DNA of 64,000 nucleotides from Sphaerolaimus hirsutus (Eukaryota; Nematoda; Chromadorea; Monhysterida; Sphaerolaimidae), in NCBI GenBank assembly GCA_964036195.1, contig OZ038452.1, positions 4,013,042-4,077,041 on the forward strand, in the 5' to 3' direction. Shown here piece by piece: positions 4,931 to 23,218 of this stretch (position 1 is the first letter of the stretch; every line of letters begins with the position of its first letter). Position numbers and translations under genes: made by a program. The notes below the pieces were generated by a model that ran no database searches, was not told the origin of the DNA, and saw only the letters and a program-made list of their open reading frames with translations.

Positions 4931-5022
4931 TAGTTGTCTGACTCGATGCAGTTCATTTTGGTGAGCGATTGACTCATATAAAGCTGAAAATACTGGTATT
5001 TTCCAAAGCAAAATGACAAATA

Positions 5023-6953
5023 TGTCATGAATCCGTGTATTCAGCTGTTTTTCGACTACACGATTCACGAGGTTTCTTTTACCGCACTTTTCCCTCTATT
5101 CCCACCTCACCGGCCGCTTGCCACTGCAGTGCACTGCACTGGGCCCGGAGGTCCAGATTATAAATGCGTGTTGTAAATTTTAAGGAAACGTGTCCGAAGA
5201 CGGTAGGTTTTTCAGAACGTGCGATGAACCACTCGGTGGCTCACGCTGTTCCGTTTCCCGCAGCACGCACGGCACTCACACTCAGCATAAGCAGCGCGGT
5301 AATTAGAGCAGTTGTTAATTAGCTAACTAAGGGAAATCAGTTAGTACTTAGTGCCAATACAAAAGGGGGTCCAAGTTGGGTTGAGAAGAGAGTTTATTTT
5401 TTAGGGCGATGGAAGAACAGTAGCGGCAGAGTAGAAGCAAATCAGCTTACGTCGCATGGACGAAGTTGCCGGAAAAAACAATTTCAGCTACTTATAAGGC
5501 AATCGAGACTACCATAATCGACTTGAATAAAAAGCTAAAAAAGACATAAAATTGCGAGGTTACAAAATCACTTTCAAATCACATAAGCTCTGATGTAAGC
5601 ACTTAGTAAAATCGTACGTAACACAGCTGCTTATGAAAAGAGTACAACTTAATATCAGCTAATAAAAGTAATTAAAAGCTTCATGCGACATGGGGCTTAA
5701 CCTATAATTTACAAGTTCACTTGATACGACAATTACTCACTTCCATAATTACCTACAAATTCCTACTTAATATAAGACAACTTAAAACAGAGAACAGTGC
5801 AGTGCAACGCATATTTACTAAAACGGAATGAACAAAGTATGTACAAAAGCAATTACGGTATCATGATCCAACACAGCAATTTAAGCTAATCAATAATTAG
5901 ACAGCCAACACAAGCTTACAACTAATGTTAATTAATTAAGATACAGAACGATTAATTAGGCGCGTGGGAATGAAAGGCACTGGCGTAACACGCTATGTAC
6001 AACAGTTTCTACATGTCACATGGAAACTTTGTTTGGGGGTTTTGTATTCATAAGTTACGGTAGCTAGAAAATGCTCGCAGGCGCGAAATGCTTATCACCT
6101 CCGACCCCGCGACCCACTATTGTGACTATCCGGTCAGCTAGCGCCCGTGAGAAAGGTTTCAGCCCGATGGCCACACCCTTCCGAGCGCGAGGAGATATTT
6201 ATGCTAGGGCGGCGGAAAAGTATTTTTTGGACTGCGACTTGTCACTTGGGGCATTGTCAGAAGCTGTTCCTACCACCCACCGATACTAGATGACGCACGA
6301 CAATCTAGTCAACATGGGGAGGAACGCGGAACAGTGCTTTTGTATTTTTTTGAGTGAAATTCATTGTTCCTGGCTTCCGGTCGCCACCTACCTATCAGCC
6401 GTCAGTCTCCGCCTCTGCCCAAAGATAAGTAAAGGGTAGAATGTGCTTTAGACCGCCCAGAGAGTCACAACAGTGTGCCGGCGAGCCCAAAGGCGGCCAC
6501 ACGCCGCGCCGCGGCATTTCAAAGTGAAAAATGTGAAATTCCCCTCTCACCTTATGCCATGTGGAATGCAGTTACACCTAAGTTAGACATAACCTAGCTA
6601 AATTGACTTAAATAGATTTGGCGCACGAAAACAGTAATTAAAATTGGGGGGTAAGGAAACAATTTTGTGCAGAGCACTACAACCACTAGAAAACATGGCG
6701 AACTCGGTCAGCCCATGTAGCGGCGTCGATCTTGCGATGCAGTGCTCTGACGGGGTACTGCGCAGCCCACTGCAGGGCTGTGTATGCCATGCAGTCCCCG
6801 TTGCCGTCGAAAAGCCGTCGCAATGTCTGAGAAAGTTTGCCCAAATTTAGTTCACAACATACATAGTAGTTTACGTTCCGTGAATTATTGTTGCATTTGT
6901 TTGTCTAAAATTTTGTGGGGTGGTGTTTTTCCCATCGTAAAAATGCTCTTACA
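5023..6953 (-). repeat. 3' LTR of the retrotransposon (1931 bp)
   Basis: On the + strand it runs from TGTCATGAATCC to GCTCTTACA, so in element orientation it starts TGTAAGAGC and ends CATGACA. It matches 21145-23061 almost base for base, with one 14-base segment around 6720-6740 absent from the right copy. A minus-strand AATAAA (5393-5398) is a candidate poly(A) signal and ATAAATAT near 6195-6203 a weak TATA-like candidate. Neither is tested. Short open frames inside are not credible genes. Confidence 0.93.
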
Positions 6954-7548
6954 ACCCACCAGCCATTGCGGTTTACCTCCTGGCTAAACTATTGAGGTGT
7001 GACCGGTGATTATTTTTACGATCGCATGCACAAAATTTTTCGTTAAATATAAAAGTTGTTCATCTTTTCGAAATTTTCAAAAGTGGTCATTTGTATGCAA
7101 AAATGGCTTGCATGTATTTCACAGTCGAAAATCAGATTCCGAAACGTGGCTGGCAATTACAAAAATGCAATAATAAGCTGAGAACGGTATGGGAGTTAAT
7201 CAACTGCCCTGCCTTTTGCAGTCGGGACTTTATAGTGGAATTGCCGATTGGGTTCTGGAGGTATTTCCATTTTCAAAATTATTTTACTTTTTTCAAATTT
7301 ACAAAAACTTTGTTTTTTATTCAGAAAAGTGCCAATTTTGGACGGTCAACTGGGGGCGGCGGTTACGTTCGTCAACTCGGGGGGACAAAACTCGGCCATT
7401 CGGTGCCGCAGCGAACGTCTTGGAAACTATTTGGTGTGTGATTTCGAGATACTTAGTTAATTGTTTTGTTTGTTTCACTGTTGGTTATAGTTTCCATTAC
7501 GTTATCAGTTTCCAAAAAACTTTCAAAACAAAAATGTCCTGGGTTTAC
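6954..7548 (-). other. 3' untranslated stretch and candidate polypurine tract
   Basis: This segment lies between the helicase stop codon and the 3' LTR. The bases next to the LTR read, on the element strand, AGGAGGTAAACCGCAATGGC and then TGGTGGGT. They are only moderately purine-rich, so the polypurine primer is assigned weakly. No credible reading frame is seen; the overlapping + strand frames are mirror images or low-content. Confidence 0.4.
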
Positions 7549-10500
7549 TCAAACTCCCTCGTCAGTGCCCTCCATCGGCACGTCTTCTTCGGTAGCAACC
7601 TCGGGCTGCATGTCGTCCTCTTTAGCCGGCGCTGGCGCAGCGACCGCCACGGGTTCGTCGGGCTCGATGTCGCCGTCGGGGGCTAGCAGCGCCTCCTCTT
7701 CCGGTGCGGAGAATGTGGCGTCGTCGCCATCGCCATCGGAGGTGCTGGCGATGTCCTCGACCTCGTCCGTGGGGTCGTACGGCAGCGGCTCGTCCGCCGG
7801 CTGGGGCGCGTTTTGTACGTCCACGGGCTCGTCCATATTGACGTCCGGCTGGGCGAGCTCAGTCTGGGCGGCTTCGTCGTCATCGTTGTACTGGTGCTCG
7901 GGGCAATGGGCCTGTGGCCTCCAGTCGGGCGACCAGGTCCATATCCTGGGTCCCCAGATTTTCTCTGCGTGATACTGGTAAAGACCAGCCGAAGCGAATT
8001 CATACGAAAAGAAAATGTGGAAAAAGTCAGACCACAACAAGGTCTCCACGTTGGCCACTACGACTCTGGCGCAACGCGAGCGGGAGGTGGCCACGTTTCC
8101 ACGTTCCAGCTGGGCCACGAAGCCGACTCGAGTGGTCTGCTGAGAATACTGGGTGGTCAACCTGTCGCGCGCGGGCGGCTCGCTGCTGCGCACGCACGAC
8201 ACGATGGTCACCTCAGCTTCTCTAGCTTGCGCTTTGTCGGCGGTGAGCACTCGAGTCGCCCAGAATTCTCGCCCGTAGTGCTTCAACGAAGGGTCGGTTG
8301 CCAATTTGTCGATCAGCGCGCGCTGCTGCGCCGCATAAAAAGTGACCACCAAAATGGCATCCGCCCGACTCAGGTCACTCCAGGGCACGCCGCCCTGGTT
8401 CGCCAATTCCACAAAATGTTTAACCAACTGCACTACGATGAGCTGCTCGGGTACGTTGACGGTCGACGTGCCCTCCTTGGTTTCCAGCCCGGTGTGGTTG
8501 ATGACCGTGGACAGCGGAATCGGGACGTGGTCGCCCGGCATGCGCGGCAAGTTGTCATCCCTGCACGGCGATTTCTGATGATAGGGGCGGAGCCGGCCTT
8601 CGTACGCCGCGTGCGAATTGGCGTTGATCAGCTGGGGGTGCCCGCGGAAAACCGTTTCCAGCCGCAGCAGGGGGCACATTTTGGACGCTGTGAGTCCATC
8701 AATCAAAGATGGAGAGGGATTAAGGAAGGGTTCAACCCATCGCTGGGTCTGAACTTTGCGGGTAAGTTGCTTGCTGTCTCCGAACAGCAAGACTAAGCCG
8801 TTGTGGGGGAGCGACACGGGGTTCAACGCTGTGACCATGGAAATGTTCATGGCGAGCGACGCCTCGTCCACTATCATGGCACAGTACCTGATGTGCTTGA
8901 TGCGCACATCATGTGTCGAATCGACAGTCACGTGGATCTGTCCTGGCTGCAACAAATCCAGAACGTACTTGTGCAGCTTGACGGTGCCCTTGGCGTACCT
9001 CCGGGCGGCCCGGCGCAGCACGCGGCCCCAGTCTGTGTCCTCGAGGTCCGGGTCGTTCACATCGACGCCCGTGCGACCCGCTACGACCTCGTCGTTGTCG
9101 TCGTCCCATTCTTCATCGTCGTCTTCGCCAGTGACGACTAGGTGCGGCACCTTCTCCATTAGCGCCTTCATCACCTGCTGGGGGGTTTGGTTGGGACCTG
9201 CGACGATGGAGTGCACGGTCTCGTACTCAGTTTTCACCGCCCAGTACTGGTCTACCAGCTCTATCCACTGGGCGTCGATCCGCGCGACCGAGAAAGGGGT
9301 GTCCTGCGCTATTTTGTGCAGCGCGGGCAGGTCGTCTACAGCGAGGTCGCTGTAGACCTCCTGGGTTTCCAACAGGGGGCTCAGCACCCTTACAGCGAAC
9401 GCCGCTCTCAATTTCAAATATTCGACGTACCCGGGCTCTTGCAGCATGTCCTTAACTTGTGCGGCGGGCAGTTCGGACCACTGCTTGCGGCCCAGCAGCA
9501 GGCGGCGCACGGCATCGTGCACGCCGTCGCGGCCGGTGCGCTGCATGTTTTGCACAGCGCGCCTAGCGCTCTCGTCCGTCGCCGAGTTGACGGTGCACGT
9601 GACGATGGTGGAGTGGTATTTGGCGTTGGAAGTGATGTCGGAGGAAAGGGTGGAATTACTGTCTGGGAATGGGCGACCATTAAACTGGTTGAAGTACAAC
9701 GAGCACATGTACGCCACCTGGTTCTGCACAGTGGTCTTGCCAGTGCCGAACGGGGAGTCGCACATGAGCAACAGCGGCCACGCCAGCTTCAAGGCGGCTA
9801 AAACGGCCGCCAGGGTTTTCGCCTGGCCGCCCAGCGGCTTGAACTCGCCGGGCTTACTCACCAGCAGCGCTTCGGACGTGCCCTGACGGATTTCGTCTTC
9901 TAGGGGCGCGGCCGTGGCGCGGATGTGCGACCACTGGGTGAACGTGTCGGACAACCGATCATCATACACAATGGCAATGGCGATCTGGTCACCCAGTTTT
10001 AGGACATTGCCCGAGCATATGTTGGACGGTCTCCAACCTTCGTTCAGGCGCTCGATAGCGCCTTGCAAAGAACGCATGGTTCGCACATAGTTGGGCGACT
10101 CATTGGTGGTGCGCACCATGTAGTCGCCGTTCTCGAGCTCGGACGGGAGCGCCGCCTGGCTCAACTTCAAGTCCAAATTGCCCATAATTACAGCCCGCTC
10201 CGGACTTACCTCTAAGGTGGCCACTCGCAGTTGCAACTTTGGCTGCGTCGGGTCGGGCCTGTCGTCGTCGGGCATCGCCCTGGTCAACGTCAGCACCGAC
10301 ATCGGTCCGGCGCCGACCAGCAGCTGGGGTAGAGCGTTGATTTGCACGTTCGCTCGTCTCTGCTGCTCGTCCGTCTGCTCTTGCTCATCGTTGACGGCGT
10401 CGGCCAGGTCCGGCCTGTTGATCGTGATGCACGCCTTGGTGCCTGCGTCGGTCGCTTCCCACTCAATTAGCGCGCGCACCGCCGTGGCGCGTGCCGCTCG

Positions 10501-11553
10501 GAAACGCAACAAAGACTCGTGGTACATGTATGCTGCGGCCAGCATCACGTACTTGGTGCGCAGGTGCGGCGGGTGCACCCGGTTCAATTCCACCTCGTGG
10601 GGGTCGTGGAAGTAAAAATCTTCCAGCGCCGATTTTTCGAGCAAGAAAACGCCATACGCATGTGCGTAATAGACGTTGTCAAACACGTCGTTGTTCAGGT
10701 CGTGAAACTCGACGTGTGCAATCCCCAACATACCTGCACTCGGGATCGGGTTGCCGGGCATGGTGTATTCGCGGTGCGCGAATGCCAAGCGCTCCGGGCC
10801 GCCATCGTTGCGCTCGCCCGCGCCCAACTCCGGCAGCTCCTTGTAGCGACGGGGCGTGAACGCCACTCGCAGCCGCAGCGAACGCCAGTTCGTTGAGTAG
10901 CGCTGGTAGCCGACCTCGTCGCGCTGCGCGTCGTACTCATGGTCGGCCGGGGCGCGTCCCTGTACGGTTACGACGACGGGCACTGCCACCAATAGGGGGC
11001 TAGCGCTTTTGTTCATGTCCAATTTGATGTCAAATAACTCCCAGTAGTCGGGTTTAGCAGTGCAACGCTGCACATACCTGGCCGTGAACTTCATACCATG
11101 TCTGACGAGCGGCAGGTGCAGCTCCGGGCCGTACTTCTCGTTGATGTTGGCGTACTGAGCCACCACGACCGACGTGCGGCGGTCGCGGGCGCCGCGCGCG
11201 ATGTTGGTCGAGTAAGTGAAGAACGGGTACACGTTGTCGGCGCCGTTCCATTCGTCGTTCTCGGCCAGCTCGGCCAGCGCGTCGTCGTGAAGTCGCACGT
11301 GGGCTTGGTAGTATTCCCGGTCTGCAGTGTCGTGTCTCCAATAGACACGGTCCACCCAGCCGGCGAACATCCGCTTCGCGTAGACGGGCGGCGGGGGCCG
11401 CTGGTTCTCACCCCACTGGTGATCCACCTTGGGGGGCGGTATGGTGGCGCCCGGTTCGCCACGTTGGGTGGTGGCTTTCGTGAAGCCCGAGCCCGCGGCG
11501 CTGGCGCGCCGGCCATTGTGCTGCCGTTTGGCGCCCATGCTCCTTCCGGCCAT
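7549..11553 (-). CDS. Upf1-like superfamily 1 helicase, ORF3 of the retrotransposon
   Basis: This 1334-residue protein carries a full SF1 helicase motif set. They are a Q-like GGQAK (574-578), Walker A SPFGTGKTT (600-608), motif Ia TIVTCTVNSATDESARRAV (649-667), motif II IVDEAS (894-899), and motif III LLFGDSKQL (922-930). After these come motif IV VFRGHPQLIN (968-977), motif V region TADKAQAREAEV (1104-1115), and motif VI GNVATSRSR (1152-1160) with its two arginines. The order and wording are those of the Upf1/SF1B branch (5'-3' helicases on RNA or DNA). Motif V has AQARE where the family usually has FQGRE. The first 570 residues match no domain I know. About 225 residues separate motifs Ia and II and include an acidic run (810-822). 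The tail after 1200 is acidic and proline/alanine-rich. The ORF starts at its own ATG 262 bases after pol, in a different frame, and is visibly more GC-rich than pol, which fits host-gene capture. All catalytic residues are intact. The substrate and role are unknown. Confidence 0.9.
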   Translation of the reverse strand: MAGRSMGAKRQHNGRRASAAGSGFTKATTQRGEPGATIPPPKVDHQWGENQRPPPPVYAKRMFAGWVDRVYWRHDTADREYYQAHVRLHDDALAELAENDEWNGADNVYPFFTYSTNIARGARDRRTSVVVAQYANINEKYGPELHLPLVRHGMKFTARYVQRCTAKPDYWELFDIKLDMNKSASPLLVAVPVVVTVQGRAPADHEYDAQRDEVGYQRYSTNWRSLRLRVAFTPRRYKELPELGAGERNDGGPERLAFAHREYTMPGNPIPSAGMLGIAHVEFHDLNNDVFDNVYYAHAYGVFLLEKSALEDFYFHDPHEVELNRVHPPHLRTKYVMLAAAYMYHESLLRFRAARATAVRALIEWEATDAGTKACITINRPDLADAVNDEQEQTDEQQRRANVQINALPQLLVGAGPMSVLTLTRAMPDDDRPDPTQPKLQLRVATLEVSPERAVIMGNLDLKLSQAALPSELENGDYMVRTTNESPNYVRTMRSLQGAIERLNEGWRPSNICSGNVLKLGDQIAIAIVYDDRLSDTFTQWSHIRATAAPLEDEIRQGTSEALLVSKPGEFKPLGGQAKTLAAVLAALKLAWPLLLMCDSPFGTGKTTVQNQVAYMCSLYFNQFNGRPFPDSNSTLSSDITSNAKYHSTIVTCTVNSATDESARRAVQNMQRTGRDGVHDAVRRLLLGRKQWSELPAAQVKDMLQEPGYVEYLKLRAAFAVRVLSPLLETQEVYSDLAVDDLPALHKIAQDTPFSVARIDAQWIELVDQYWAVKTEYETVHSIVAGPNQTPQQVMKALMEKVPHLVVTGEDDDEEWDDDNDEVVAGRTGVDVNDPDLEDTDWGRVLRRAARRYAKGTVKLHKYVLDLLQPGQIHVTVDSTHDVRIKHIRYCAMIVDEASLAMNISMVTALNPVSLPHNGLVLLFGDSKQLTRKVQTQRWVEPFLNPSPSLIDGLTASKMCPLLRLETVFRGHPQLINANSHAAYEGRLRPYHQKSPCRDDNLPRMPGDHVPIPLSTVINHTGLETKEGTSTVNVPEQLIVVQLVKHFVELANQGGVPWSDLSRADAILVVTFYAAQQRALIDKLATDPSLKHYGREFWATRVLTADKAQAREAEVTIVSCVRSSEPPARDRLTTQYSQQTTRVGFVAQLERGNVATSRSRCARVVVANVETLLWSDFFHIFFSYEFASAGLYQYHAEKIWGPRIWTWSPDWRPQAHCPEHQYNDDDEAAQTELAQPDVNMDEPVDVQNAPQPADEPLPYDPTDEVEDIASTSDGDGDDATFSAPEEEALLAPDGDIEPDEPVAVAAPAPAKEDDMQPEVATEEDVPMEGTDEGV

Positions 11554-11815
11554 ATTACGTTTTTAAGTTTTAAGGAAGAGTGCAATTAATCACAATCAAT
11601 CACCGGCACTGCAGTGGACTCTCGGAGCCCACTAGTGTACCAGCGAATTTACAACCGCACTCACACGCACATGAACACGCAGTCACACGCACTTGGGATC
11701 ACAAGTTCGTCAAACTTACGTGATGAGGGAATTATTCGAATTACGGGAACACAATTAATTAATTTGTTCAGTGGCTACGTCGATAGCCACTTAAGGGCTT
11801 TACCGCAATGAGAGT
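11554..11815 (-). other. Inter-ORF spacer between pol and helicase
   Basis: The spacer holds no ORF of note. On the element strand, a pyrimidine-poor TCCACTGCAG about 60 bases before the helicase ATG is a possible 3' splice site, so ORF3 could be read from a spliced RNA as retroviral env is. That is an inference only. The spacer begins with a compact stem-loop (11771-11790). Confidence 0.4.
11771..11790 (-). other. Perfect stem-loop just after the pol stop codon
   Basis: GTGGCTA CGTCGA TAGCCAC is a 7-bp perfect stem with a 6-base loop, starting about 26 bases beyond the pol stop codon. It could be an RNA structure affecting 3' processing, termination or ORF3 expression. No function is shown by sequence alone. 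Confidence 0.5.
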
Positions 11816-14599
11816 CTAAGTAGGGCCGAGATTCTGCGTGCAGGTGGGGATAATGTTTTCGAGCGTTGGTTTACAGCGATCCGCATGCACTACATAAATC
11901 TTATCATTAGTATCATTATAAATAGTTACAAGCGGATGAGCATAGCGAATGCATTCGTAGGGGCCTAAAAAGAAAGCAGCAAATTTTTTACAAGGGCCGG
12001 TCTGATCGGTCAAGCGCGGAGTGAAAATACGGACCGCTTGGCCCGGCTTCAAATTCAAATGGCGGGCGCGGCGATTGGCGTAGTATTGCTCTTTCAATTG
12101 AGCATTCCTAAGCGCGGTATGCGCCGCATTGCGCGCCGCCGAGAGACGCTGCGCGAGCTCGGTAGGTTCACCATGCTTATCTGTCGACTCGGGTAGCATT
12201 GCGCCAGGCGCGGGGGGCGTCAACATTCTTTCCCAGAGCGACGCGGCTGGGCGCCCAAACAAAAGTGCGTATGGCGTGGTGCCCATGGCCGGGTGTTTCG
12301 AGGTATTATACGCGTGCACCGCAGCGCCTAAGTGGTAATCCCAATCGGAATGAGTTTGGTTTACGTAATGGGACACGATTTCCATCAGAACACCGTTTCG
12401 GCGCTCCACCATTCCGTTGCCTTTTGGCATATACGCAAATGAGCGATGCTGAAGGGTATTGAAATACAATAACAATCTTTTGAATGCCCCTTCAACAAAG
12501 CTTGGCGCGTTATCGCTCAAAATGGCGCCGGGTACGCTAAATATGGGAAGAATGTGTAGTAAGAATGCAAATGCTACAGTATCCTGCCGGATATCGGGTA
12601 CCGGAACAGCGATACCAAATCGCGTGCACTGGTCAACGAAAACCAACACGTGTTTATGCCCGCGCCGCGTGCGTGGCAGCGGGCCAACGGCGTCGACTGC
12701 GATGACATCGCCGGGAGATCGCGCGATTTTCCGGCACGCCATCAAAGTCTGCATCGACTGCCTGAGTCCTTTTCGCGCACAACACAAAGGGCACGTGGCG
12801 ACCCAATGCGCGCTTTCGGGGCGCATATTTGGGAACCACGCAAATTCCTGTAATCTTTCAAAAGTTTTCATTATTCCCAAATGTCCCGCTGTAGGGTGAT
12901 TGTGTGCTAGTTCGAATACTAGCGGGCACAGTGAGGCTGGAATACACACAGGATCATACAACTTGATCCCCGGTACTATTGAAGCCTCAGCCCTTTTTCG
13001 CATGATTCCATATTGATCAATGAAAAACGGTGGCACACATTTTCCAGGTGCATCCTTACAAACTTCCATCAAATTCACTATATACGCTTCTTGCATTTGC
13101 AAGCGTTTCAATTCAATTATGGGGACAAACGGGGGCAAAACGTGATCAGTGTGAAAACCGTTGACGCGCACTTCGGTAGCCGCGGGGCCACCAGCCATTG
13201 TTTGTGGACCTACGGTAGTAAGCCCGGTAATTGGCTCCACCCCATTGTTCGCCGGCTGTCGCATGTCCATTGTCCCAGGGTTGTGGTCACGCGCCGCAGA
13301 CTCCGCCCTCGCACGCGCGCGTGTCCTCATTGGTTCCTTGATGGGCGCGCGTCTGGAAACAGTAGCTACCGTATCACACGGGTCGATTGCGGTCTGCGTC
13401 GCGACAGTTTTATTGCGTGATATTTTAATGAGTGCAAATTGCTCAAATGCTTCGTCAAGTTCTAATTTCTCATCGAAAGTTATTGGCGCATCGCGCCTTC
13501 GGGACAGAGCATCTGCGAGCTCATTGCATTTTCCTTTCAAATGCTTAAATGTAATTTGATACGGGGCAATGGCCAATGCGAACTTATGCAATGCGGCGTG
13601 TGGTGTAGCCTCCAAATTGGGGTTCTTCACCCAAGGGATACTTTTGGCATCAGTCCACACTTCAAAGGGGCGCCCCGCCAAGTAGCAATGCCAATTTCGG
13701 ACGCTCTCAAAAATTGCGTAAGCCTCTAGAGTGATGGCGGGCCATCTGCTCTGAACCTCAGTTAACTTCCGGCTGTAGAACGCGCACGCATGCAGTCCAG
13801 ATTTTTCGTCGGCTCGCTGCACCAGCACTCCAGCGACCGCAATTTGTGACGCGTCTGTAATTACGATGAACGTTTTATTTGGGTTCGGGTATTGCAAACA
13901 GGGGCTGTGTAATAATATTTCTTTTAATTGGAAGAAGGCTCTCAGAGCCTCAGGATTGTCGTTGAGATCTACCGGCGCATTTCCATCGTAGTTCTCGCGC
14001 GGACCGGTGCGTGTCAAATTCGATAGCGGCACTGCTATCTCGGCGCATCTGTGTATCATGCGTCTGAAAAATCCCACTGCACCCAAAAACCCTTTGACTT
14101 CCTTGACAGTTTTTGGGAGGGGCCATTCTGAGATAATATTGCGTTTGTCCATGGGAATGCAAATGCCCTTGCGGCCGATCATGAAGCCCAGAAATTTTAC
14201 CGCGGTAATGCGTGCGAAGAAACATTTACGGGGACTAATTTTGAAGTTGTTTTTGATCAATCGATCCAAAATTTGGCCAATGTCACTTAAATGGGTTTTC
14301 CAGTCCTGACTGTAAATTAGCAAGTCGTCAATGTACAATAGCACATTGCGATGAATCAGTCCCGCCATTGCAAGCTCAAAACACCTTTGTGCCAAACTCG
14401 GTGAGCATTTTAATCCCATAGGTAATCTCTTTAATTGGAATTGACCAAAAATATTACGGAACGAAGTGATGTGTCTGTCGTCGGGATGCAGTGCAATATT
14501 ATAGAAAGCCTGGTTAATATCGGCGCTGCTAAAAAAACTTGCAGTTGCTGAGTGCATCCACGGTGTCATCCAGCCTCGGCAATGGGAATTGCGGCGCAT
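11816..14599 (-). CDS. Pol, second part: RT palm to integrase
   Basis: This is a 927-residue frame; only residues from about 22 onward continue the RT domain, the first 21 being out-of-frame lead-in from the overlap with ORF1. RT: FGQFQLKRLPMGLK (51-64), YIDD (89-92), FLGFMIGRKG (136-145). RNase H: TDASQ with D249, WTDAKS with D317, and ELADALSRR with D363. Integrase: an HHCC zinc module (H566/H568/H573 region, C603 and C606) and a catalytic triad D636, D696 and E732 with D,D-35-E spacing. The tail FLGPYECIR (878-886) is a GPY/F-type module. There is no chromodomain. The domain order is classic Ty3/Gypsy. The arginine- and alanine-rich linker 415-445 between RNase H and integrase is poorly conserved in type. 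Translation must continue from ORF1, so the frame break near 14531 matters for activity. Confidence 0.93.
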   Translation of the reverse strand: MRRNSHCRGWMTPWMHSATASFFSSADINQAFYNIALHPDDRHITSFRNIFGQFQLKRLPMGLKCSPSLAQRCFELAMAGLIHRNVLLYIDDLLIYSQDWKTHLSDIGQILDRLIKNNFKISPRKCFFARITAVKFLGFMIGRKGICIPMDKRNIISEWPLPKTVKEVKGFLGAVGFFRRMIHRCAEIAVPLSNLTRTGPRENYDGNAPVDLNDNPEALRAFFQLKEILLHSPCLQYPNPNKTFIVITDASQIAVAGVLVQRADEKSGLHACAFYSRKLTEVQSRWPAITLEAYAIFESVRNWHCYLAGRPFEVWTDAKSIPWVKNPNLEATPHAALHKFALAIAPYQITFKHLKGKCNELADALSRRRDAPITFDEKLELDEAFEQFALIKISRNKTVATQTAIDPCDTVATVSRRAPIKEPMRTRARARAESAARDHNPGTMDMRQPANNGVEPITGLTTVGPQTMAGGPAATEVRVNGFHTDHVLPPFVPIIELKRLQMQEAYIVNLMEVCKDAPGKCVPPFFIDQYGIMRKRAEASIVPGIKLYDPVCIPASLCPLVFELAHNHPTAGHLGIMKTFERLQEFAWFPNMRPESAHWVATCPLCCARKGLRQSMQTLMACRKIARSPGDVIAVDAVGPLPRTRRGHKHVLVFVDQCTRFGIAVPVPDIRQDTVAFAFLLHILPIFSVPGAILSDNAPSFVEGAFKRLLLYFNTLQHRSFAYMPKGNGMVERRNGVLMEIVSHYVNQTHSDWDYHLGAAVHAYNTSKHPAMGTTPYALLFGRPAASLWERMLTPPAPGAMLPESTDKHGEPTELAQRLSAARNAAHTALRNAQLKEQYYANRRARHLNLKPGQAVRIFTPRLTDQTGPCKKFAAFFLGPYECIRYAHPLVTIYNDTNDKIYVVHADRCKPTLENIIPTCTQNLGPT

Positions 14600-17500
14600 G
14601 CAAAACCAAATTTAATCGCCTGTAATCAATGACCATGCGTTTAGAACCATCAGGTTTAGAAACGACTAGTGTGGGAGCGCAGTATGGGCTTGTACTTGTT
14701 TCAATTATGTCGTGTTCAATTAGACAGCGCAGGTGCTTTTCTAAGTATTGTTGGTCGTCCAGGCTCAACCGATACATGCGGCACGCAATCGGTTTTCGAT
14801 CGGTTAATTGTAGCCGATAATCAACCAATTCGCTGTACCCTATGTCGTACTTGTGTCTCGCAAAGGCGCCTTTGTGCTTCAAAAGTACGGCTGCAAGTTC
14901 CTTGCGCTCATTTTCCGACAATGTTTGGGGCACAGAAAATTCCATTTCGTGTCCATCTGGACATTTCACATGCAATGGCTCACCTAATTGGTCTTCAATT
15001 ACCTTTTCTGGAACGCTTGAAGAAACCGGCTCTGTCGCTTCATTGGCGCGGCACTGCCGTATCCATTCCTCAGGGGGGTCGCCGGCTTTGACTTTCAAAA
15101 CACAGTCGACGGGCTCAACCAAACCGATTTTTTGCTCCATCTGCAAGGTAACCGGTTGATCACGCACGTTTGCAACCCTCATTAGAAACACTTCGTCACT
15201 TGTTTCATATGCTGCAGATGCGGCAACTACCCCATCCTTCAGGTTTACGGATTCCAGCCCAGTGACAGTAAATGTGCGATAACTAACTGGAGCTGACAGG
15301 TGCACCGGCACCATTGCTTCATGCCTTGCCTTGATTTCGGTAGCCGCTGTGACTAATGCAAATACTGCACGAATCTGCACGTCCGGCTTGTGGTTATCAA
15401 ATGGAATGCTGACGCCTACTGAGGGGATTTTTAAGAGGCGCGCGGGCATATCAATTATCATGTGCCGCAGCACATCCGTGCCCAAAATTAAATTGTCAAC
15501 CAGGCCATCGATGGCTTGAAAAACGACACGAAATGTGTGTCCCCCAATGTCAATGGGCATTTCCAACTGACCAATTATCATTAGTTTGGAATCCGCAGCG
15601 CATCGCATGTGAGAAATGGGAGAAGTTTCTTCAACGGCGTCGTGTCCATGCCGATGCTCCTGGAACACATCCCTGCTGCACAGCGAGCGCATGGCGCCAG
15701 TGTCCAGCAAGCATCTGTGGTACATGATGCCGTCCATGCACACGGGCACCGCAGGACTGTAATAGACATGCACAGGCCCGTTCCGCCTCGCGACGACAGA
15801 CTTTATATTTTCCTGTTCATCTTTTGATAGCGTAATCATTCTAATTCTATCCACTGGTGGGCTCATGGAAATTTCCGCCATTTCTAATTGGTGATTATAT
15901 TCAATTGATGGGAACATCTGTACCGTTACCGTGTCATCTGATGCGTACTCGGACGCACCTGTTGTCGGATTCAACACGGTCAGTCGGCCGTCATAACTTT
16001 TCATAAAGCTACGCTTACCTGTGTCTCTGTGTCGGGTAATTAGCGGCCTTGACTTCCGTTGCAGTCGTCGGCGCGCACGTTCAATTAGCGTCGTAGCTGC
16101 CGGGGGCGCGGCGGCTAACAAAGCTGCTAATAAATACTGGCAGGTCACTATGGCGCACACCAGGTAAATCCATATCTGCAGCCATGACCTCAAGGCGTCA
16201 AAATCCCAAAATCCCACGCTTATCATTGACCTGGCCATTAATCGATGCGATTGTAAACTGCCATCAACTGCATGCGTCGGCATTCCATGCACGCGTCGCA
16301 CAATCGCGTATGAGTGCCACACGTCGTTCAGCGTGGTGGTCGGCAGCAGCTCAGACAAATTGTACATTGTCGTTGCGGCAAAGATCTGATGGTGTACGTC
16401 CGTCGGTCGTTCGAGCTGCCACCTGTGAGGGAAACTGTGGGTGTTGTAAACGGGGATATGTTCCAGGGCGCCTTTCTCAGGTAAGTACTTATACCACTGC
16501 CCATGCAATTTCAACACACGGTTGTGGCGATTCGTGCACGTTCCCATAACCGGCTGGAACAGAAGGGCATTTGTAATTGTATCCAAATGCAAGGTCACGT
16601 TCTGTCCATGTAATTTCATTCGTATTGGGACCGTGGCGTGGCACGCGCCTTTACCTGTTTCGGTGCCCAACTGATAAGTCTTTACCGCAAAGCACTTATG
16701 CACTAGAAATCCGTCTGGCGCCGCCTTGGCCAATATCTCATTGTCGCGCATGTACCAGCGCGCTGTGGTCGTCGGGTGCTCGGTCATAGCTAAGCGGAGA
16801 AGTTCCTGAAAATGTTGCACATGCCTACAAGTAGACACGGCCTGTGCACGCATTGTTTGCTCAGATGTCTCGTACACCGCTTGCATCGCTGCGGCCAAGT
16901 GACCGGTGTCCACTACGCCAAACCCGGGGCGTGCTGCGCGACGCTTTTCCCGCACATACCTAATTGGGGGGATTTCGAACGGTGCTACAACAATATCCTG
17001 GTCTGATTTCCATAATTTTTTACCACATGAAATGATTTCTTCTTTTACTCGAAATGACAATGCCAAAGTGTGATCACGCGCGAGCCAAATATCTTGTCTA
17101 ATTAGCCCAGCTATTTCTTGCCATTTCTCATAGGGGCATTCAGCCTTTGGATTTGGTTTCCAGACTAATTGGCTACCGTCGGGCAGGGTACAGGTGCCCT
17201 CCTTGTAATTACACTTTGACACCTCTCCTAGCGTACTTTGCATGACCTTGGCGCCGTAGCGCATGCGTACATCTCCCTTAAACAACCCACACTGCGGGGT
17301 CTTGGTAATTAACCAGCTGCAACAGTACAGCCCGTGCCCCGAATAACTTACGTTTGTCGGGTATTGAGTGTCCCATGCATTGCTCAGCTCGTCCACTGGC
17401 TGAAGTGCGCCGTCGTTGCACTTATGGTACTTCATCATGCTCTCACACTCCGAGGGATCTACCGCACGCGGCTGCGAGTCAAAATGTTCCAAAGTGACGT

Positions 17501-20500
17501 CACCCCAAAAGTTCTGGTATGTATGAGCAGACCGCGTGGCCGCTACACATCGATATGCGGTGGCACGATACTCTACCATATTGCGTTTGTAAATGGTGAG
17601 TTTCAGGGGAACCGGCTTAGTCAAAGACACAGCAGAATCGACTAACGCGGTGCAGTTAGGCAAGTCGGGGTAGGTGTACAAGTCGTAGTGATCGGTCAGG
17701 TCGCTGCACAGCAGTGGCGTGTCCGGCATCGTCGAGGCCGCCGCCAAAGGAATCAAGCTCAGGCACGCCATCACCGCGGCGATGGTGAACACTGTAAACA
17801 AGGCGCCAAAGACTTGATTATTATACGGTGGTTCAGAATAAGCTCGCTGGCGAGGTACTGCGGACGTTTTGTCTCTAAATTCGGCCATTTTGTCAACGCA
17901 TGTGCTCGAGAACGTACGCGGGGACAAAATCACAGGGGGCTCATTTAGGAATGGGTCCAATGGGGCGTCACGCAAAACCCTCCACTCGATTCTAGTAAGC
18001 GTATCATTGTGGTCGTCATGCGGGCGACAGTCTGGGAGCACCACACAATCTTCATCCTTCAGATCATGCATTGCAGTGCGCCGCAGGTAATCTAACCAAC
18101 TGGTACGAAATAGAATTGACGAGGCTTCGCGTTGATACGCCCAGTGGCTAATCCACTGTTCTCGATCTACCATGAGCGCGTGCATTTTGCACTGAAGGCT
18201 AGCTACAGGTTGCTCCTCCATCTCCTCCTCTTCAGGAGCTTCCGGTTCCAGCCCTTGCAATGACAATATTTGATCATGATGGAAGAGAATTCTAGCGTAA
18301 GACGGCGATGACTCGGTCACGGCCTTGTAAGTGCATTCACCCACCTGTGTCACTGTCGTCGGGTTCAGCAGCGGCACGCTGCTGCTCTGGCCTTGCTGCG
18401 ATTCCAACGGCCGTTGCGCCGGTTGTGGCTGCGGGTGCCATCCTATGGCCGCGGGCTGCTGGCTCTGGACGTACACAGGCTGCATCATCTGCGAGGAAGG
18501 CACGGTCATAGGTTGACTTAATTGCATCGGTACCCATCCTCCTGGATACCCAAAGTTTTGTGGATATTGTCCTCCCTGTCCACGGCCTCGCCCTCGGCCG
18601 CCACCTCTACCGCGCGCACGGAAGTCGCCTCCGCGGCCACGCTGATTGCTATCGTTGCCAGCAGATGGCTCGGGAGGGGGCTTATTTGGACATTGGTAGC
18701 GGAAGTGATCAGGAGATCCACATTCCCAACATCCATTTTCAAACCTTTTGGGCGGTAACTCACGCCTCGGGCGCGGCGCACCCATCATCTTAGCTTCCTG
18801 GGCGTCGAGTTTTTTCTGCCGCTCGTCGAGCGCCCGCTCCTTGGCCTTGAGCTTCGCATTCTCGGCACTCTCGGCCTCCATCGACTGGACCGAGGGGTGC
18901 AGGTTCATGGCCATGATGCGCTCCATGACCTGATTCGACGTCTCGGCGACGATCTCGCCGGCCGACTTCGCATGTTCCTTCTGAACGGTTTCAAGATTTT
19001 TGTAACTTTCTTGCATGCGCGCATTATCAACTAATTCCTTCCAACTTATATTGGCGTGCACCGCCAGGTTGTGCCTAATGTCCTTATCCAACCCCTGGTG
19101 AAACTTAGTGATGCACATGCCTTCCCTTTGGGCGGAGTGCAGCATTGGGTATGCGCGTTTTACCGCACGTTCCAACCTAGTTGCCCAATCCAGCACAGAT
19201 TCAGTGGGACTTTGAGTTGATTCGATAAACTCGCGCTGTGCATGATGCTGAGCGTTTGGATTTGCAAACAATTCTTCCAAACGATCCATCATGGCTTTGT
19301 AATCAAGTGCGCGCAGTTCCCGCCTTCTAGCTACGAAAATAGAATTGGCATTCTTTTGTAAAAAGATAGGCAGCAACTTTTGCCTAGAACGCATTGAAAC
19401 ACCTAGCGCATCACACAAAATGTCCCACTTACGTCTCCAGTCCTTGAAACTCTTGTCAGCCCTTCCGGTGAATGCATCGCACTGCGTAGCCAGGGCGGTC
19501 AGCGTAGCAGCCGTGCCGTGCGGCACCTGGTGCTGCGCCAGGTAGTCTGGATCCGTAGGATTAGGTGCGGGTGAAATCGATCCTGACGATCCTGGGGAGG
19601 AGGGGCCCGGCTGTCCCGCCAAATTGATTACGCTGGTAGCTGGTTGCGCCGTGGCGTTTGCAGGCGCAGGTGCCGCTCCACTGCCGCCCGCTGATCCGCT
19701 TACACTCGCCGGCGGGGGTACAGTCTGCGCGGTTGTGTTCCCAGGGGCTGTTCCCGCGCCTAAAGTAGCATTAGCTGCCGATGCTATAGGTGCGATTAAT
19801 CCCCTATTAGAACAAAACGCCAAAAATTGAGTGGTGGCCTGCTCCAGCGCGCTAGGGTTACCTACGCTGGTGTACATACTCAGGCCTAGTCTTATGGCCT
19901 GTAGCTTATTTTTATCTGCTGTGGAAGCATTGACTGAAATCGCCGCTGGTCCCGCGCGACTAAGTTCCCCAGACCACTGGTGCAATAGTTGTATCATGCC
20001 CGGGAAGGTCCAACCTTCTCTAGTGTACCCAGTGGTTTCCCTGCCCGGGTCCGCCGCGGTCGCCGCCGTCAGGATCTGGCCCGGCGTCACTTGGTTGGCT
20101 GCCGCCGCCGGGGTAGTCGTCACCGTTGTGAGCGTGGCCGGCGCGGTCGTCACACTCGAACCTGGGGGCGGAGTGCTAGTCATTCTACTTTGATTTATGG
20201 GAGACGGTCCTACGATTCTACGCCGTGCTCTATTCGAAGAGACACAGCTTTCAATCGAGCCTTGCGCAGATGCAAGCTCACGTGGTGTGGAAGAACTTCG
20301 CGGGGCACTTAATTGAAGCTCCCCCAATGAATTTTCCGCCTCTTCGAGCTCTTCGGCTAACGAGGGAAATTCAATATTTATATCTGGGATCGCTACTGGG
20401 GTGTCAATTAGATTTACGGAAGTCTCACCACTTCTACGCTGGTATGCAGACGAACTCACGGGCTCGTCTTCACCAGCGTACCCTGCTGAATCAGCCTGTG

Positions 20501-21038
20501 ACCCAGACCCTGTCGACACCGGGGAGCTACGGCCGCTTTTTCCCCACGGTCGTCGAAATAAACCCCACTTACTTGATTTCCGCTGCTCTCGCCCGGGCTC
20601 AGCACTTACTGGCCTGTCGGGTCGCAGGAGCGGACTATCTGGTGGGCGTTCTGTTTCTGTGCCTCCACTGGACGCTCGTCGAGCCGCCCCAGTCGGTAGC
20701 GCACCTGGCGCGCAAGCCGGCGTATCCCAACAGCTGCCGCCTGTTCCTGCACGTGCAATTCCAAATTGCAGCACTGGCCGGACGACGGGAGTGCTATCCT
20801 CTGTGCGTCTGGTCCAAGTCGCTGCTTCCTGTGCGCGCTCGGCTTCCGCTTCCGCTTCCTGCGCACCTGCTTCAGCTCTTACCTGTTCAACCTCAGCGTC
20901 CTGCGCGTCCGCAGTCTGCTGTGCCCTGCGCAAAGCCGCTTCTCGGCGCGTGCGCTTCTGTAGCTGTTCTGCAGCTCTCCACACTTCCTCAACTGACCCT
21001 GGGATCGACGCTGGCCCTCCTGACCGCAGCGTTTCCAC
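14529..21038 (-). CDS. Gag / Env-like / protease / RT N-terminus polyprotein
   Basis: This is a 2169-residue frame starting at an ATG about 100 bases after the 5' LTR. Residues 15-75 form a charged coiled-coil-like stretch. Residues 100-490 are Ser/Thr/Pro/Ala-rich. Residues 498-700 resemble the Retrotrans_gag capsid fold (FKDWRRKWDIL ... DWATRLERAVKRAYP). A CCHC zinc knuckle is C770-x2-C773-x4-H778-x4-C783, followed by an RGG box (798-822). Residues 1077-1650 are an Env-like membrane segment (separate entry). The aspartic protease has LLDTGA (D1779) and ILGTD (1851-1855). RT begins about 2015, includes MVIDYRRLN (2135-2143), and stops at residue 2169, inside the RT domain, at a T7 run on the coding strand. 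Gag, Env-like and Pol are therefore in one uninterrupted frame with no Gag-Pol shift, which is unusual. It overlaps the second pol frame by about 70 bases. Confidence 0.93.
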   Translation of the reverse strand: METLRSGGPASIPGSVEEVWRAAEQLQKRTRREAALRRAQQTADAQDAEVEQVRAEAGAQEAEAEAERAQEAATWTRRTEDSTPVVRPVLQFGIARAGTGGSCWDTPACAPGALPTGAARRASSGGTETERPPDSPLLRPDRPVSAEPGREQRKSSKWGLFRRPWGKSGRSSPVSTGSGSQADSAGYAGEDEPVSSSAYQRRSGETSVNLIDTPVAIPDINIEFPSLAEELEEAENSLGELQLSAPRSSSTPRELASAQGSIESCVSSNRARRRIVGPSPINQSRMTSTPPPGSSVTTAPATLTTVTTTPAAAANQVTPGQILTAATAADPGRETTGYTREGWTFPGMIQLLHQWSGELSRAGPAAISVNASTADKNKLQAIRLGLSMYTSVGNPSALEQATTQFLAFCSNRGLIAPIASAANATLGAGTAPGNTTAQTVPPPASVSGSAGGSGAAPAPANATAQPATSVINLAGQPGPSSPGSSGSISPAPNPTDPDYLAQHQVPHGTAATLTALATQCDAFTGRADKSFKDWRRKWDILCDALGVSMRSRQKLLPIFLQKNANSIFVARRRELRALDYKAMMDRLEELFANPNAQHHAQREFIESTQSPTESVLDWATRLERAVKRAYPMLHSAQREGMCITKFHQGLDKDIRHNLAVHANISWKELVDNARMQESYKNLETVQKEHAKSAGEIVAETSNQVMERIMAMNLHPSVQSMEAESAENAKLKAKERALDERQKKLDAQEAKMMGAPRPRRELPPKRFENGCWECGSPDHFRYQCPNKPPPEPSAGNDSNQRGRGGDFRARGRGGGRGRGRGQGGQYPQNFGYPGGWVPMQLSQPMTVPSSQMMQPVYVQSQQPAAIGWHPQPQPAQRPLESQQGQSSSVPLLNPTTVTQVGECTYKAVTESSPSYARILFHHDQILSLQGLEPEAPEEEEMEEQPVASLQCKMHALMVDREQWISHWAYQREASSILFRTSWLDYLRRTAMHDLKDEDCVVLPDCRPHDDHNDTLTRIEWRVLRDAPLDPFLNEPPVILSPRTFSSTCVDKMAEFRDKTSAVPRQRAYSEPPYNNQVFGALFTVFTIAAVMACLSLIPLAAASTMPDTPLLCSDLTDHYDLYTYPDLPNCTALVDSAVSLTKPVPLKLTIYKRNMVEYRATAYRCVAATRSAHTYQNFWGDVTLEHFDSQPRAVDPSECESMMKYHKCNDGALQPVDELSNAWDTQYPTNVSYSGHGLYCCSWLITKTPQCGLFKGDVRMRYGAKVMQSTLGEVSKCNYKEGTCTLPDGSQLVWKPNPKAECPYEKWQEIAGLIRQDIWLARDHTLALSFRVKEEIISCGKKLWKSDQDIVVAPFEIPPIRYVREKRRAARPGFGVVDTGHLAAAMQAVYETSEQTMRAQAVSTCRHVQHFQELLRLAMTEHPTTTARWYMRDNEILAKAAPDGFLVHKCFAVKTYQLGTETGKGACHATVPIRMKLHGQNVTLHLDTITNALLFQPVMGTCTNRHNRVLKLHGQWYKYLPEKGALEHIPVYNTHSFPHRWQLERPTDVHHQIFAATTMYNLSELLPTTTLNDVWHSYAIVRRVHGMPTHAVDGSLQSHRLMARSMISVGFWDFDALRSWLQIWIYLVCAIVTCQYLLAALLAAAPPAATTLIERARRRLQRKSRPLITRHRDTGKRSFMKSYDGRLTVLNPTTGASEYASDDTVTVQMFPSIEYNHQLEMAEISMSPPVDRIRMITLSKDEQENIKSVVARRNGPVHVYYSPAVPVCMDGIMYHRCLLDTGAMRSLCSRDVFQEHRHGHDAVEETSPISHMRCAADSKLMIIGQLEMPIDIGGHTFRVVFQAIDGLVDNLILGTDVLRHMIIDMPARLLKIPSVGVSIPFDNHKPDVQIRAVFALVTAATEIKARHEAMVPVHLSAPVSYRTFTVTGLESVNLKDGVVAASAAYETSDEVFLMRVANVRDQPVTLQMEQKIGLVEPVDCVLKVKAGDPPEEWIRQCRANEATEPVSSSVPEKVIEDQLGEPLHVKCPDGHEMEFSVPQTLSENERKELAAVLLKHKGAFARHKYDIGYSELVDYRLQLTDRKPIACRMYRLSLDDQQYLEKHLRCLIEHDIIETSTSPYCAPTLVVSKPDGSKRMVIDYRRLNLVLHAPQFPLPRLDDTVDALSNCKFF
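14531..14537 (-). other. Frame break at an A7/T7 run inside RT
   Basis: ORF1 stops directly after this homopolymer, and the same RT domain continues in another frame (ORF2) across it. The break lies between the RT fingers and palm, not at a domain border. It is therefore more likely a one-base indel in this copy or a sequencing error than a programmed shift, though a T7 slippery run is physically capable of slipping. Confidence 0.8.
15399..15761 (-). other. Retropepsin-like aspartic protease domain within ORF1
   Basis: About residues 1760-1880 of ORF1. RCLLDTGAMRSLCS carries the catalytic D1779-T-G-A, and NLILGTDVLRHM (1849-1860) is the second family signature. It would cleave the polyprotein. 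It lies after the Env-like segment and directly before RT. Confidence 0.85.
16089..17810 (-). other. Env-like membrane glycoprotein segment between Gag and protease
   Basis: Residues 1077-1650 of ORF1. A hydrophobic signal-like segment (1077-1101, FGALFTVFTIAAVMACLSLI) is followed by a cysteine-rich ectodomain of about 510 residues. Potential N-glycosylation sites are at N1128, N1229, N1480 and N1560. A furin-type REKR (1363-1366) sits mid-ectodomain. A second membrane segment (about 1619-1645, WLQIWIYLVCAIVTCQYLLA) is followed by a basic stop-transfer RARRRLQRKSR. This architecture is that of an enveloped-virus surface glycoprotein cleaved into two subunits. The GTC...W.P cysteine pattern is loosely reminiscent of class III-type glycoproteins of negative-strand viruses, but I cannot assign the family. 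The two membrane segments would put Gag and Pol both on the cytosolic side, which is topologically workable for a polyprotein. Internal initiation or splicing are alternatives. Confidence 0.65.
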
Positions 21039-21144
21039 CCGGCGCGACAGATTGTTTGTTACTTATCACTTAACGGCTTGGCGTTGATCAGGCGCCGCAC
21101 CGTTCACTGAAGTGAATCAAGCAAACCACTCGCTGCTACCAAGT
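21039..21144 (-). other. 5' leader of the retrotransposon with primer-binding site
   Basis: This is the short leader between the 5' LTR and the gag ATG. Three bases after the LTR, the element strand reads TGGTAGCAGCGAGTGGTTT (+ strand 21123-21141), starting with TGG as expected for pairing to a tRNA CCA end. The acceptor-stem wording resembles a leucine-type tRNA, but I cannot settle which one. Confidence 0.65.
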
Positions 21145-23061
21145 TGTCATGAATCCGTGTATTCAGCTGTTTTTCGACTACACGATTCACGAGGTTTCTT
21201 TTACCGCACTTTTCCCTCTATTCCCACCTCACCGGCCGCTTGCCACTGCAGTGCACTGCACTGGGCCCGGAGGTCCAGATTATAAATGCGTGTTGTAAAT
21301 TTTAAGGAAACGTGTCCGAAGACGGTAGGTTTTTCAGAACGTGCGATGAACCACTCGGTGGCTCACGCTGTTCCGTTTCCCGCAGCACGCACGGCACTCA
21401 CACTCAGCATAAGCAGCGCGGTAATTAGAGCAGTTGTTAATTAGCTAACTAAGGGAAATCAGTTAGTACTTAGTGCCAATACAAAAGGGGGTCCAAGTTG
21501 GGTTGAGAAGAGAGTTTATTTTTTAGGGCAATGGAAGAACAGTAGCGGCAGAGTAGAAGCAAATCAGCTTACGTCGCATCGACGAAGTTGCCGGAAAAAA
21601 CAATTTCAGCTACTTATAAGGCAATCGAGACTACCATAATCGACTTGAATAAAAAGCTAAAAAAGACATAAAATTGCGAGGTTACAAAATCACTTTCAAA
21701 TCACATAAGCTCTGATGTAAGCACTTAGTAAATTCGTACGTAACACAGCTGCTTATGAAAAGAGTACAACTTAATATCAGCTAATAAAAGTAATTAAAAG
21801 CTTCATGCGACATGGGGCTTAACCTATAATTTACAAGTTCACTTGATACGACAATTACTCACTTCCATAATTACCTACAAATTCCTACTTAATATAAGAC
21901 AACTTAAAACAGAGAACAGTGCAGTGCAACACATATTTACTAAAACGGAATGAACAAAGTATGTACAAAAGCAATTACGGTATCATGATCCAACACAGCA
22001 ATTTAAGCTAATCAATAATTAGACAGCCAACACAAGCTTACAACTAATGTTAATTAATTAAGATACAGAACGATTAATTAGGCGCGTGGGAATGAAAGGC
22101 ACTGGCGTAACACGCTATGTACAACAGTTTCTACATGTCACATGGAAACTTTGTTTGGGGGTTTTGTATTCATAAGTTACGGTAGCTAGAAAATGCTCGC
22201 AGGCGCGAAATGCTTATCACCTCCGACCCCGCGACCCACTATTGTGACTATCCGGTCAGCTAGCGCCCGTGAGAAAGGTTTCAGCCCGATGGCCACACCC
22301 TTCCGAGCGCGAGGAGATATTTATGCTAGGGCGGCGGAAAAGTATTTTTTGGACTGCGACTTGTCACTTGGGGCGTTGTCAGAAGCTGTTCCTACCACCC
22401 ACCGATACTAGATGACGCACGACAATCTAGTCAACATGGGGAGGAACGCGGAACAGTGCTTTTGTATTTTTTTGAGTGAAATTCATTGTTCCTGGCTTCC
22501 GGTCGCCACCTACCTATCAGCCGTCAGTCTCCGCCTCTGCCCAAAGATAAGTAAAGGGTAGAATGTGCTTTAGACCGCCCAGAGAGTCACAACAGTGTGC
22601 CGGCGAGCCCAAAGGCGGCCACACGCCGCGCCGCGGCATTTCAAAGTGAAAAATGTGAAATTCCCCTCTCACCTTATGCCATGTGGAATGCAGTTACACC
22701 TAAGTTAGACATAACCTAGCTAAATTGACTTAAATAGATTTGGCGCACGAAAACAGTAATTAAAATTGGGGGGTAAGGAAACAATTTTGTGCAGAGCACT
22801 ACAACCACTAGAAAACATGGCGAACTCGGTCAGCCCATGTAGCGATGCAGTGCTCTGACGGGGTACTGCGCAGCCCACTGCAGGGCTGTGTATGCCATGC
22901 AGTCCCCGTTGCCGTCGAAAAGCCGTCGCAATGTCTGAGAAAGTTTGCCCAAATTTAGTTCACAACATACATAGTAGTTTACGTTCCGTGAATTATTGTT
23001 GCATTTGTTTGTCTAAAATTTTGTGGGGTGGTGTTTTTCCCATCGTAAAAACGCTCTTACA
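21145..23061 (-). repeat. 5' LTR of the retrotransposon (1917 bp)
   Basis: This is the upstream LTR in element orientation and contains the promoter. It is nearly identical to 5023-6953, with about six substitutions and the absence of 14 bases near 22842. TSD AATA follows at 23062-23065. The near identity implies a recent insertion, since LTRs are identical at integration. Confidence 0.93.
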
Positions 23062-23218
23062 AATACTACACATAAAAATTTTTACGTTTACGTTTTTTTT
23101 ATGTATTCCTTGGTATTTTAAAAATACCTTACGTTTTGGTATTTATACTTTTGATTTGGAAAAGGTATTTACGTTTACGTTTACGTTTTCCAAAAATACC
23201 AATATTTGTACAACTCTG

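Follow-up and report, generated by a model that had tools for sequence, protein, structure and literature searches.

Does a helicase gene lying between the integrase and the 3' long terminal repeat (LTR) of a nematode retrotransposon belong to that element, and if so, what might it do there? The question is raised by a 64,000-nucleotide stretch of the Sphaerolaimus hirsutus genome (GenBank assembly GCA_964036195.1, contig OZ038452.1, positions 4,013,042 to 4,077,041), hereafter the window, to which all coordinates refer unless another contig is named. One 18,039-bp Ty3/Gypsy-type element spans window positions 5023-23061 on the minus strand, the strand of all its features given below. Its third open reading frame (ORF), ORF3 (7549-11553; 1334 amino acids, ATG at 11553), sits between the integrase, at the end of ORF2 (11816), and the 3' LTR, within both LTRs and a flanking TATT duplication, as an initial annotation of the sequence had described. 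That ORF3 is a helicase and is owned by the element is nearly certain.

Judged from its sequence, ORF3 is a complete Upf1-like superfamily 1 (SF1) motor, as the initial annotation had proposed: it matches Pfam AAA_12 with an E-value of 3.6e-23 (82.6 bits against a cut-off of 27) and the core motifs are present. The profile search suggested in that annotation was borne out in part, AAA_12 lying far over its cut-off and AAA_11 alone falling under it (4.2e-5, 23.9 bits; cut-off 27). The match to NCBIfam TIGR00376 (IGHMBP2 family; 3.3e-11) is far below the cut-off of that profile. A search of PDB with ORF3 alone reached Upf1 at 1.6e-4, while a profile combining ORF3 with the helicase of a second element family in the same genome (described below) reached a '5'-3' RNA helicase-like protein' (8ftm) at 8.8e-7, Upf1 at 3e-6 and SMUBP-2 at 7e-3. 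All 13 PDB sequences reached by the two-family profile are helicases (Upf1/NAM7, SMUBP-2 and '5'-3' RNA helicase-like'). ORF3 also matches the PADLOC profile MkoA (2.2e-17), presumably the Mokosh defence helicase.

The SF1 motifs, named after the general SF1 scheme and from alignments to Upf1, are found in the expected places: Q577, Walker A (residues 598-608), DEAS (896-899), GDSKQ (925-929), FRGH (969-972), ADKAQAREAE (1105-1114) and NVATSR (1153-1158). Almost every one of these residues is unchanged in the 45%-identical helicase of the second family, in which motif II reads DEVS; the second arginine of motif VI, which the annotation had included in the set, is replaced by lysine there. ORF3 shares the motor domain and motifs I-VI with Upf1 and IGHMBP2-type SF1B helicases, but differs from them in its weak identity, in the approximately 290 residues that separate motif I from motif II, and in an unmatched N-terminus without conserved cysteines. 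Residues 1-560 have no Pfam match even at E<=10, yet are conserved between the two families. None of the three cysteines in residues 1-597 is conserved in the second family, and thus no Upf1-type Cys/His-rich zinc domain is seen in ORF3. Capture from a host gene of nonsense-mediated decay or from a virus, as the initial annotation put forward, is conjectural.

No closer relative emerged from the searches made. Viral_helicase1 has no Pfam match in the window ORF3 at E<=0.1, and the second-family helicase reaches it under the cut-off (0.043; 14.1 versus 21 bits). Residues 400-1200 found nothing at E<=0.001 in the protein database (7990 candidates scored, a search whose reach is relatives sharing short words), and no relative was found among phage records and viral contigs. 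The possibility of a chance ORF in a GC-rich stretch is ruled out by the motif matches and by the ratio of nonsynonymous to synonymous differences (pN/pS, below); a chance origin is further excluded because all 35 scored copies are open, as are 34 of the 35 full-length copies scored in the diverged second family. Antisense ORFs of 204-327 amino acids across the ORF3 stretch are taken as by-products of GC-rich coding.

Copies of the window family were sought in the genome (348 Mb in 762 contigs, the window being C3:4013042-4077041). Only the best candidates were scored in each copy search (35 of 619 for the helicase, 49 of 2403 and 40 of 420 for the others), so that copy counts are lower bounds that favour intact copies. 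All 35 scored helicase copies, window included, are full length, open and 98-100% identical. Helicase sequence lies downstream in 30 of 30 pol loci, 29 of which extend 0.7-1.25 kb into the helicase; one locus (L012) has a deletion of approximately 0.53 kb around the helicase start, another (L024) is interrupted by a contig end, and a third (L017) carries an insertion farther up, within ORF1. Conversely, eight of eight helicase loci match the window over a 7.0-kb span that begins in pol and reaches the LTR (the window's own copy is counted once among the 30 and once among the eight), and a pol match lies 244-266 nucleotides upstream on the same strand at 31 of the 35 helicase sites, the other four having none among the 49 pol matches listed.

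The LTRs tell the same order. Fifteen LTR pairs were found, spaced 15.6-28.4 kb, and each encloses a pol or a helicase match. Both matches lie inside the 12 pairs spaced 16.09-16.14 kb; the remaining pairs enclose pol only (15.6 kb), helicase only (17.9 kb) or both (28.4 kb). Thus the helicase is colinear with pol and the LTRs, and the claims that it is the third ORF of a Ty3/Gypsy-type element, and an original part rather than a later insertion, are upheld, as is the expectation that further copies with LTRs and the same ORF order would be found; they occur in two families. Head-to-tail copies were seen in both families, 16.1 kb apart in the window family (C9:24526325 and C9:24542455) and 15.9 kb apart in the second (C6:7580792 and C6:7596669), as if two elements shared an LTR.

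The second family came to light in the AAA_12 search, in which the best 150 of 454 candidates are mostly sites of another family, often with frames of 1332 amino acids. In one copy (L053) the helicase is 45% identical to ORF3 over 1218 residues. Among 613 candidates, 35 full-length helicase copies of this family were scored, and 34 have no stop. A reverse transcriptase (RT) sequence lying approximately 3 kb upstream of L053 (L054) is identical to that of the window at 107 of 126 residues before a frame change and at 121 of 141 after it. With the best 150 of 1363 candidates scored for the family-2 RT, 128 of the 150 scored AAA_12 sites have such a match no farther than 25 kb upstream on the same strand, and at 119 of those sites the RT-to-helicase spacing is 5.6-5.9 kb, compared with 5.8 kb in the window. 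The other 22 AAA_12 sites are unmatched; two of them, at C65:86011 and C14:4125120, have the top scores overall and may be host genes.

Selection was measured by pairwise Nei-Gojobori comparison of window-family copies with a full-length frame, a requirement passed by all loci in each set (8, 30 and 10, the window being one in each). The eight helicase copies give a pS of 0.048, a pN of 0.0038 and a pN/pS of 0.079, the copies being best scorers, which lowers pN. By part, pN/pS is 0.059 for residues 561-1220 and 0.098 for residues 1-560. The helicase value resembles those of ORF2 (0.059, 30 copies) and of a glycoprotein-like region in ORF1 (0.083, 10 copies); the protein has been kept by selection. 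Between families, pN is 0.40 for the helicase and 0.10 for RT, with pS of 0.70-0.90, near saturation. The helicase has changed more quickly than RT (45% identity versus the 107 of 126 and 121 of 141 residues above), while frame and motifs are kept.

The element itself has a 5' LTR of 1917 bp (21145-23061; TGTAAGAG...ATTCATGACA) and a 3' LTR of 1931 bp (5023-6953), which differ at 6 of 1917 aligned sites and in 14 indel columns; to judge by these LTRs, the 18-kb element was recently active. Both LTRs start with TG and end with CA, and a TATT target site duplication flanks the element (23062-23065 on the 5' side, 5019-5022 on the 3' side). Such termini with a 4-6 bp duplication agree with Metaviridae and are common to other LTR elements. 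A presumed primer binding site (21124-21141; TGGTAGCAGCGAGTGG...) begins 3 nucleotides past the 5' LTR; Rfam and transfer RNA scans of the window gave no match. The Ty3/Gypsy order of protease, RT, RNase H and integrase is present between the LTRs, with RVT_1, RT_RNaseH, H2C2 and AAA_12 above their Pfam cut-offs; the integrase core rve is sub-threshold (32.0 versus 32.6 bits), yet in the expected order. A database search with RT gave 44 matches at E<=1e-10 among 7999 scored, the best with 27% identity over 93%; in a tree of those 44 matches alone, without Copia, BEL or retrovirus references, the element forms a long branch in no starred set. The element is not a Helitron: Rep and a PIF1-type helicase are unmatched (Pfam, E<=0.1), and LTRs, RT and integrase are present. 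Elsewhere in the window, long imperfect inverted repeats at 1605-2980 and 28870-30015 may represent foldback elements or elements like miniature inverted-repeat transposable elements.

ORF1 (14529-21062; 2177 amino acids, stop to stop) encodes gag, the glycoprotein-like region, protease and the start of RT. Its frame is open for 293 codons ahead of the first in-frame ATG at 20183 (20183-21062). The gag part has a CCHC zinc knuckle (18690-18731) with PNMA and Retrotrans_gag matches upstream, all three Pfam matches being sub-threshold, and the retropepsin-like protease (15462-15719; residues 1774-1859, LLDTGAM) is likewise sub-threshold (17.7 versus 28.2). In frame between the two lies the fusion-glycoprotein-like region (15759-17813), which matches PF24664, the Monjiviricetes fusion glycoprotein, at 5.5e-7 in ORF1 as a whole and at 3.5e-8 when searched alone (32.3 bits; cut-off 27). 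Hydrophobic segments at residues 1076-1102 and 1619-1644 stand on either side of this match, with a basic REKRR site at residue 1363 between them, and the region contains 19 cysteines. It found nothing at E<=0.001 in the protein database (7349 candidates scored, with the same reach as above). The initial annotation held that the position of ORF3 is normally that of env; an extra ORF does occupy that position, but the env-like region exists elsewhere, within ORF1. Of 1557 PF24664 candidates genome-wide, 68 sites were scored; many of these fall within open frames of approximately 2900 or 5000-5850 amino acids (maximum 6806; for example, C1:17083501, C1:28191791, C9:26956070 and C251:27319). These long-frame sites are perhaps other giant elements with an in-frame glycoprotein, like Burro of planarians (below).

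ORF2 (11816-14611; 931 amino acids, stop to stop) encodes the remainder of RT, RNase H and integrase. RT continues past the ORF1 stop in the +1 frame (...KFF/SSADINQ...) at the site AAG TTT TTT TAG, followed by C (14529-14540). The T7-AG run occurs at 30 of 30 pol loci, the window's own included (28 by one pattern and 2 by another), and the one family-2 copy read (L054) has the same frame change at AAG TAT TTT TAG. Because the run is T7 in the window family and T5 in that copy, TTT TAG C is the conserved part, which fits +1 ribosomal shifting with the stop in the A site better than polymerase slippage. Transcriptional slippage on T7 is therefore disfavoured, and these sequences lead us to infer +1 ribosomal shifting at TTT-TAG-C. 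No stimulatory structure was evident in the 109 nucleotides folded downstream (z -0.98). Antizyme is a described case of +1 shifting when a stop codon occupies the A site (PMC5009743); UUU-UAG is unmentioned in the part of that frameshifting review covered here.

What, then, might the helicase do? The best explanation, which as a whole has about an even chance, is that the lineage gained a Upf1-like helicase as a third gene before the two families split, kept it under selection and uses the motor on its own RNA. ORF3 would be translated from its own start, where A at -3 and G at +4 are found in both families and ORF2 ends approximately 260 nucleotides upstream. The product would be a motor driven by ATP that works on RNA (or RNA/DNA), in this case the transcript of the element itself, approximately 16 kb long. 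In the unspliced RNA, more than 7.5 kb is predicted to separate the ORF1 stop (14529) from the 3' LTR. Long 3' untranslated regions (UTRs) are the kind of RNA attacked by Upf1. A transcript of such length with so early a stop might be a target of Upf1-driven decay and difficult to copy. The motor would most likely strip structure and bound proteins from the element RNA, and RNA so cleared would survive surveillance, making translation, packaging and reverse transcription possible; this assignment of the precise step is tentative. Several points weigh against the proposal of a motor kept for the element's own RNA. The copies seen are the best scorers, so that open frames are over-represented among them; the second family is represented by its helicase and RT parts only; and a helicase that changes faster than RT resembles an accessory or host-interacting protein more than a core replication enzyme. 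This faster change of ORF3 would suit a counter-defence role too.

Transposons in general often capture host genes, and ORF3 could in principle have been inserted secondarily or be a host gene carried along as a passenger with no role for the element. The helicase, however, is in the same place at 30 of 30 pol loci and likewise in the second family (no search for a separate duplication flanking the helicase was made), and its pN/pS of 0.079 speaks against a passenger; secondary insertion is rejected because the order is colinear in both families, and this explanation is hardly credible. A decoy deserves more weight, if still unlikely: a helicase without the Upf1 Cys/His domain could compete with host Upf1 on RNA with a long 3' UTR and block nonsense-mediated decay. 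The Upf1-like motor, the N-terminal part without conserved cysteines and the stretch of more than 7.5 kb predicted to lie from the ORF1 stop to the 3' LTR are consistent with such a decoy. Host RNA helicases, among them UPF1 and MOV10, are partners or restrictors of retroelements, and UPF1 binds L1 ribonucleoproteins, its depletion increasing L1 expression; yet the same depletion decreases L1 retrotransposition, and overexpression is without effect, according to the sections of PMC4982230 drawn on here. The conserved Walker A and DE residues and the strong selection across the motor also exceed the needs of a passive decoy.

SF1B relatives work on both RNA and DNA, and strand displacement on DNA during second-strand synthesis or integration, rather than work on RNA, would be consistent with the TIGR00376 match and the weak match to SMUBP-2; the top matches are named RNA helicase or Upf1, though names do not settle the substrate, and a DNA role is regarded as quite improbable. 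Suppression of RNA silencing or of the PIWI-interacting RNA defence, by unwinding double-stranded element RNA or stripping small-RNA complexes, would fit the faster divergence of the helicase than of RT, as in an arms race, and weak suppression of silencing in leaves has been described for an SF1 helicase domain borne by a long interspersed nuclear element (LINE) (Lazareva 2015, related in PMC5563155 and PMC6338049). ORF3 belongs, however, to another helicase subfamily (AAA_12), the window protein having no Viral_helicase1 match at E<=0.1, and a role in silencing suppression is also considered improbable.

Known retroelements resemble this one in part. Errantiviruses such as Drosophila gypsy have three ORFs between their LTRs, the third being env-like. 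The element shares the three-ORF plan of errantiviruses, but its env-like region is in ORF1 and its third ORF is a helicase (compare PMC5803895, in part). LTR elements of bdelloid rotifers also carry an extra enzyme ORF at the env position; theirs encodes GDSL or DEDDy, and in the portion of PMC5408684 available the word 'helicase' occurs only in the reference list. Similarly, in the available portion of a mosquito LTR survey (PMC3286476) the word is used for neighbouring genes only. Virus-type SF1 helicases are known from LINEs of insects and from fusions with Copia pieces, with RNA quality control, silencing suppression and aid to complementary DNA synthesis as suggested functions (parts of PMC5563155, PMC6338049 and PMC5803895). 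The insect TRAS/R1 and Jockey LINEs and Ty1/Copia fusions are like the present element in joining a retrotransposon to an SF1 helicase in which the whole set of motifs is present; theirs are virus-type and LINE-borne or Copia-fused, whereas here a Upf1-like helicase forms a separate ORF in a complete Ty3/Gypsy-type element. The statement in the initial annotation that helicases are not typical of LTR elements was therefore slightly too strong, given the virus-type SF1 helicases fused to Ty1/Copia pieces in two insects (PMC5563155, in part).

The closest likeness in layout is to Burro, the giant Ty3/Gypsy element of planarians, whose in-frame glycoprotein between gag and pol was called the first of its kind in a 2019 review (PMC6431247, part of which is drawn on here). 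Both are large, high-copy LTR elements of Gypsy type that have extra domains and an env resembling a fusion glycoprotein, placed in frame between gag and pol. Burro, however, exceeds 30 kb with an ORF1 of 4873-5140 amino acids, compared with 18,039 bp and 2177 amino acids here, and its BIR, BCL2, MATH, ankyrin and dUTPase domains are unmatched in the window element (Pfam, E<=0.1). The separate helicase ORF is a further difference, none being described for Burro in section 7 of that review; the two are likened by layout, not sequence. Among the matches listed, the open-licence literature yielded no Ty3/Gypsy element whose ORFs include a complete Upf1-like helicase (subscription papers and Repbase lay outside this scope).

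It is tentatively suggested that a virus-like Ty3 lineage of gag-glycoprotein-pol layout may depend on its own Upf1-like helicase for replication or against surveillance and may obtain catalytic RT only through a +1 shift at UUU-UAG, which would apparently make this the first complete LTR element with an RNA motor of its own. The in-frame glycoprotein and the RT frame change each depart from the textbook gag/pol/env layout in a way that can be tested. Here a helicase has stayed with its element while two families diverged, which provides a natural test of what an RNA motor does when retroelement RNA is very long, and of a possible limit set by surveillance on the size of retroelements. A helicase gene within such an element may show how elements of this kind capture tools for managing very long RNA.

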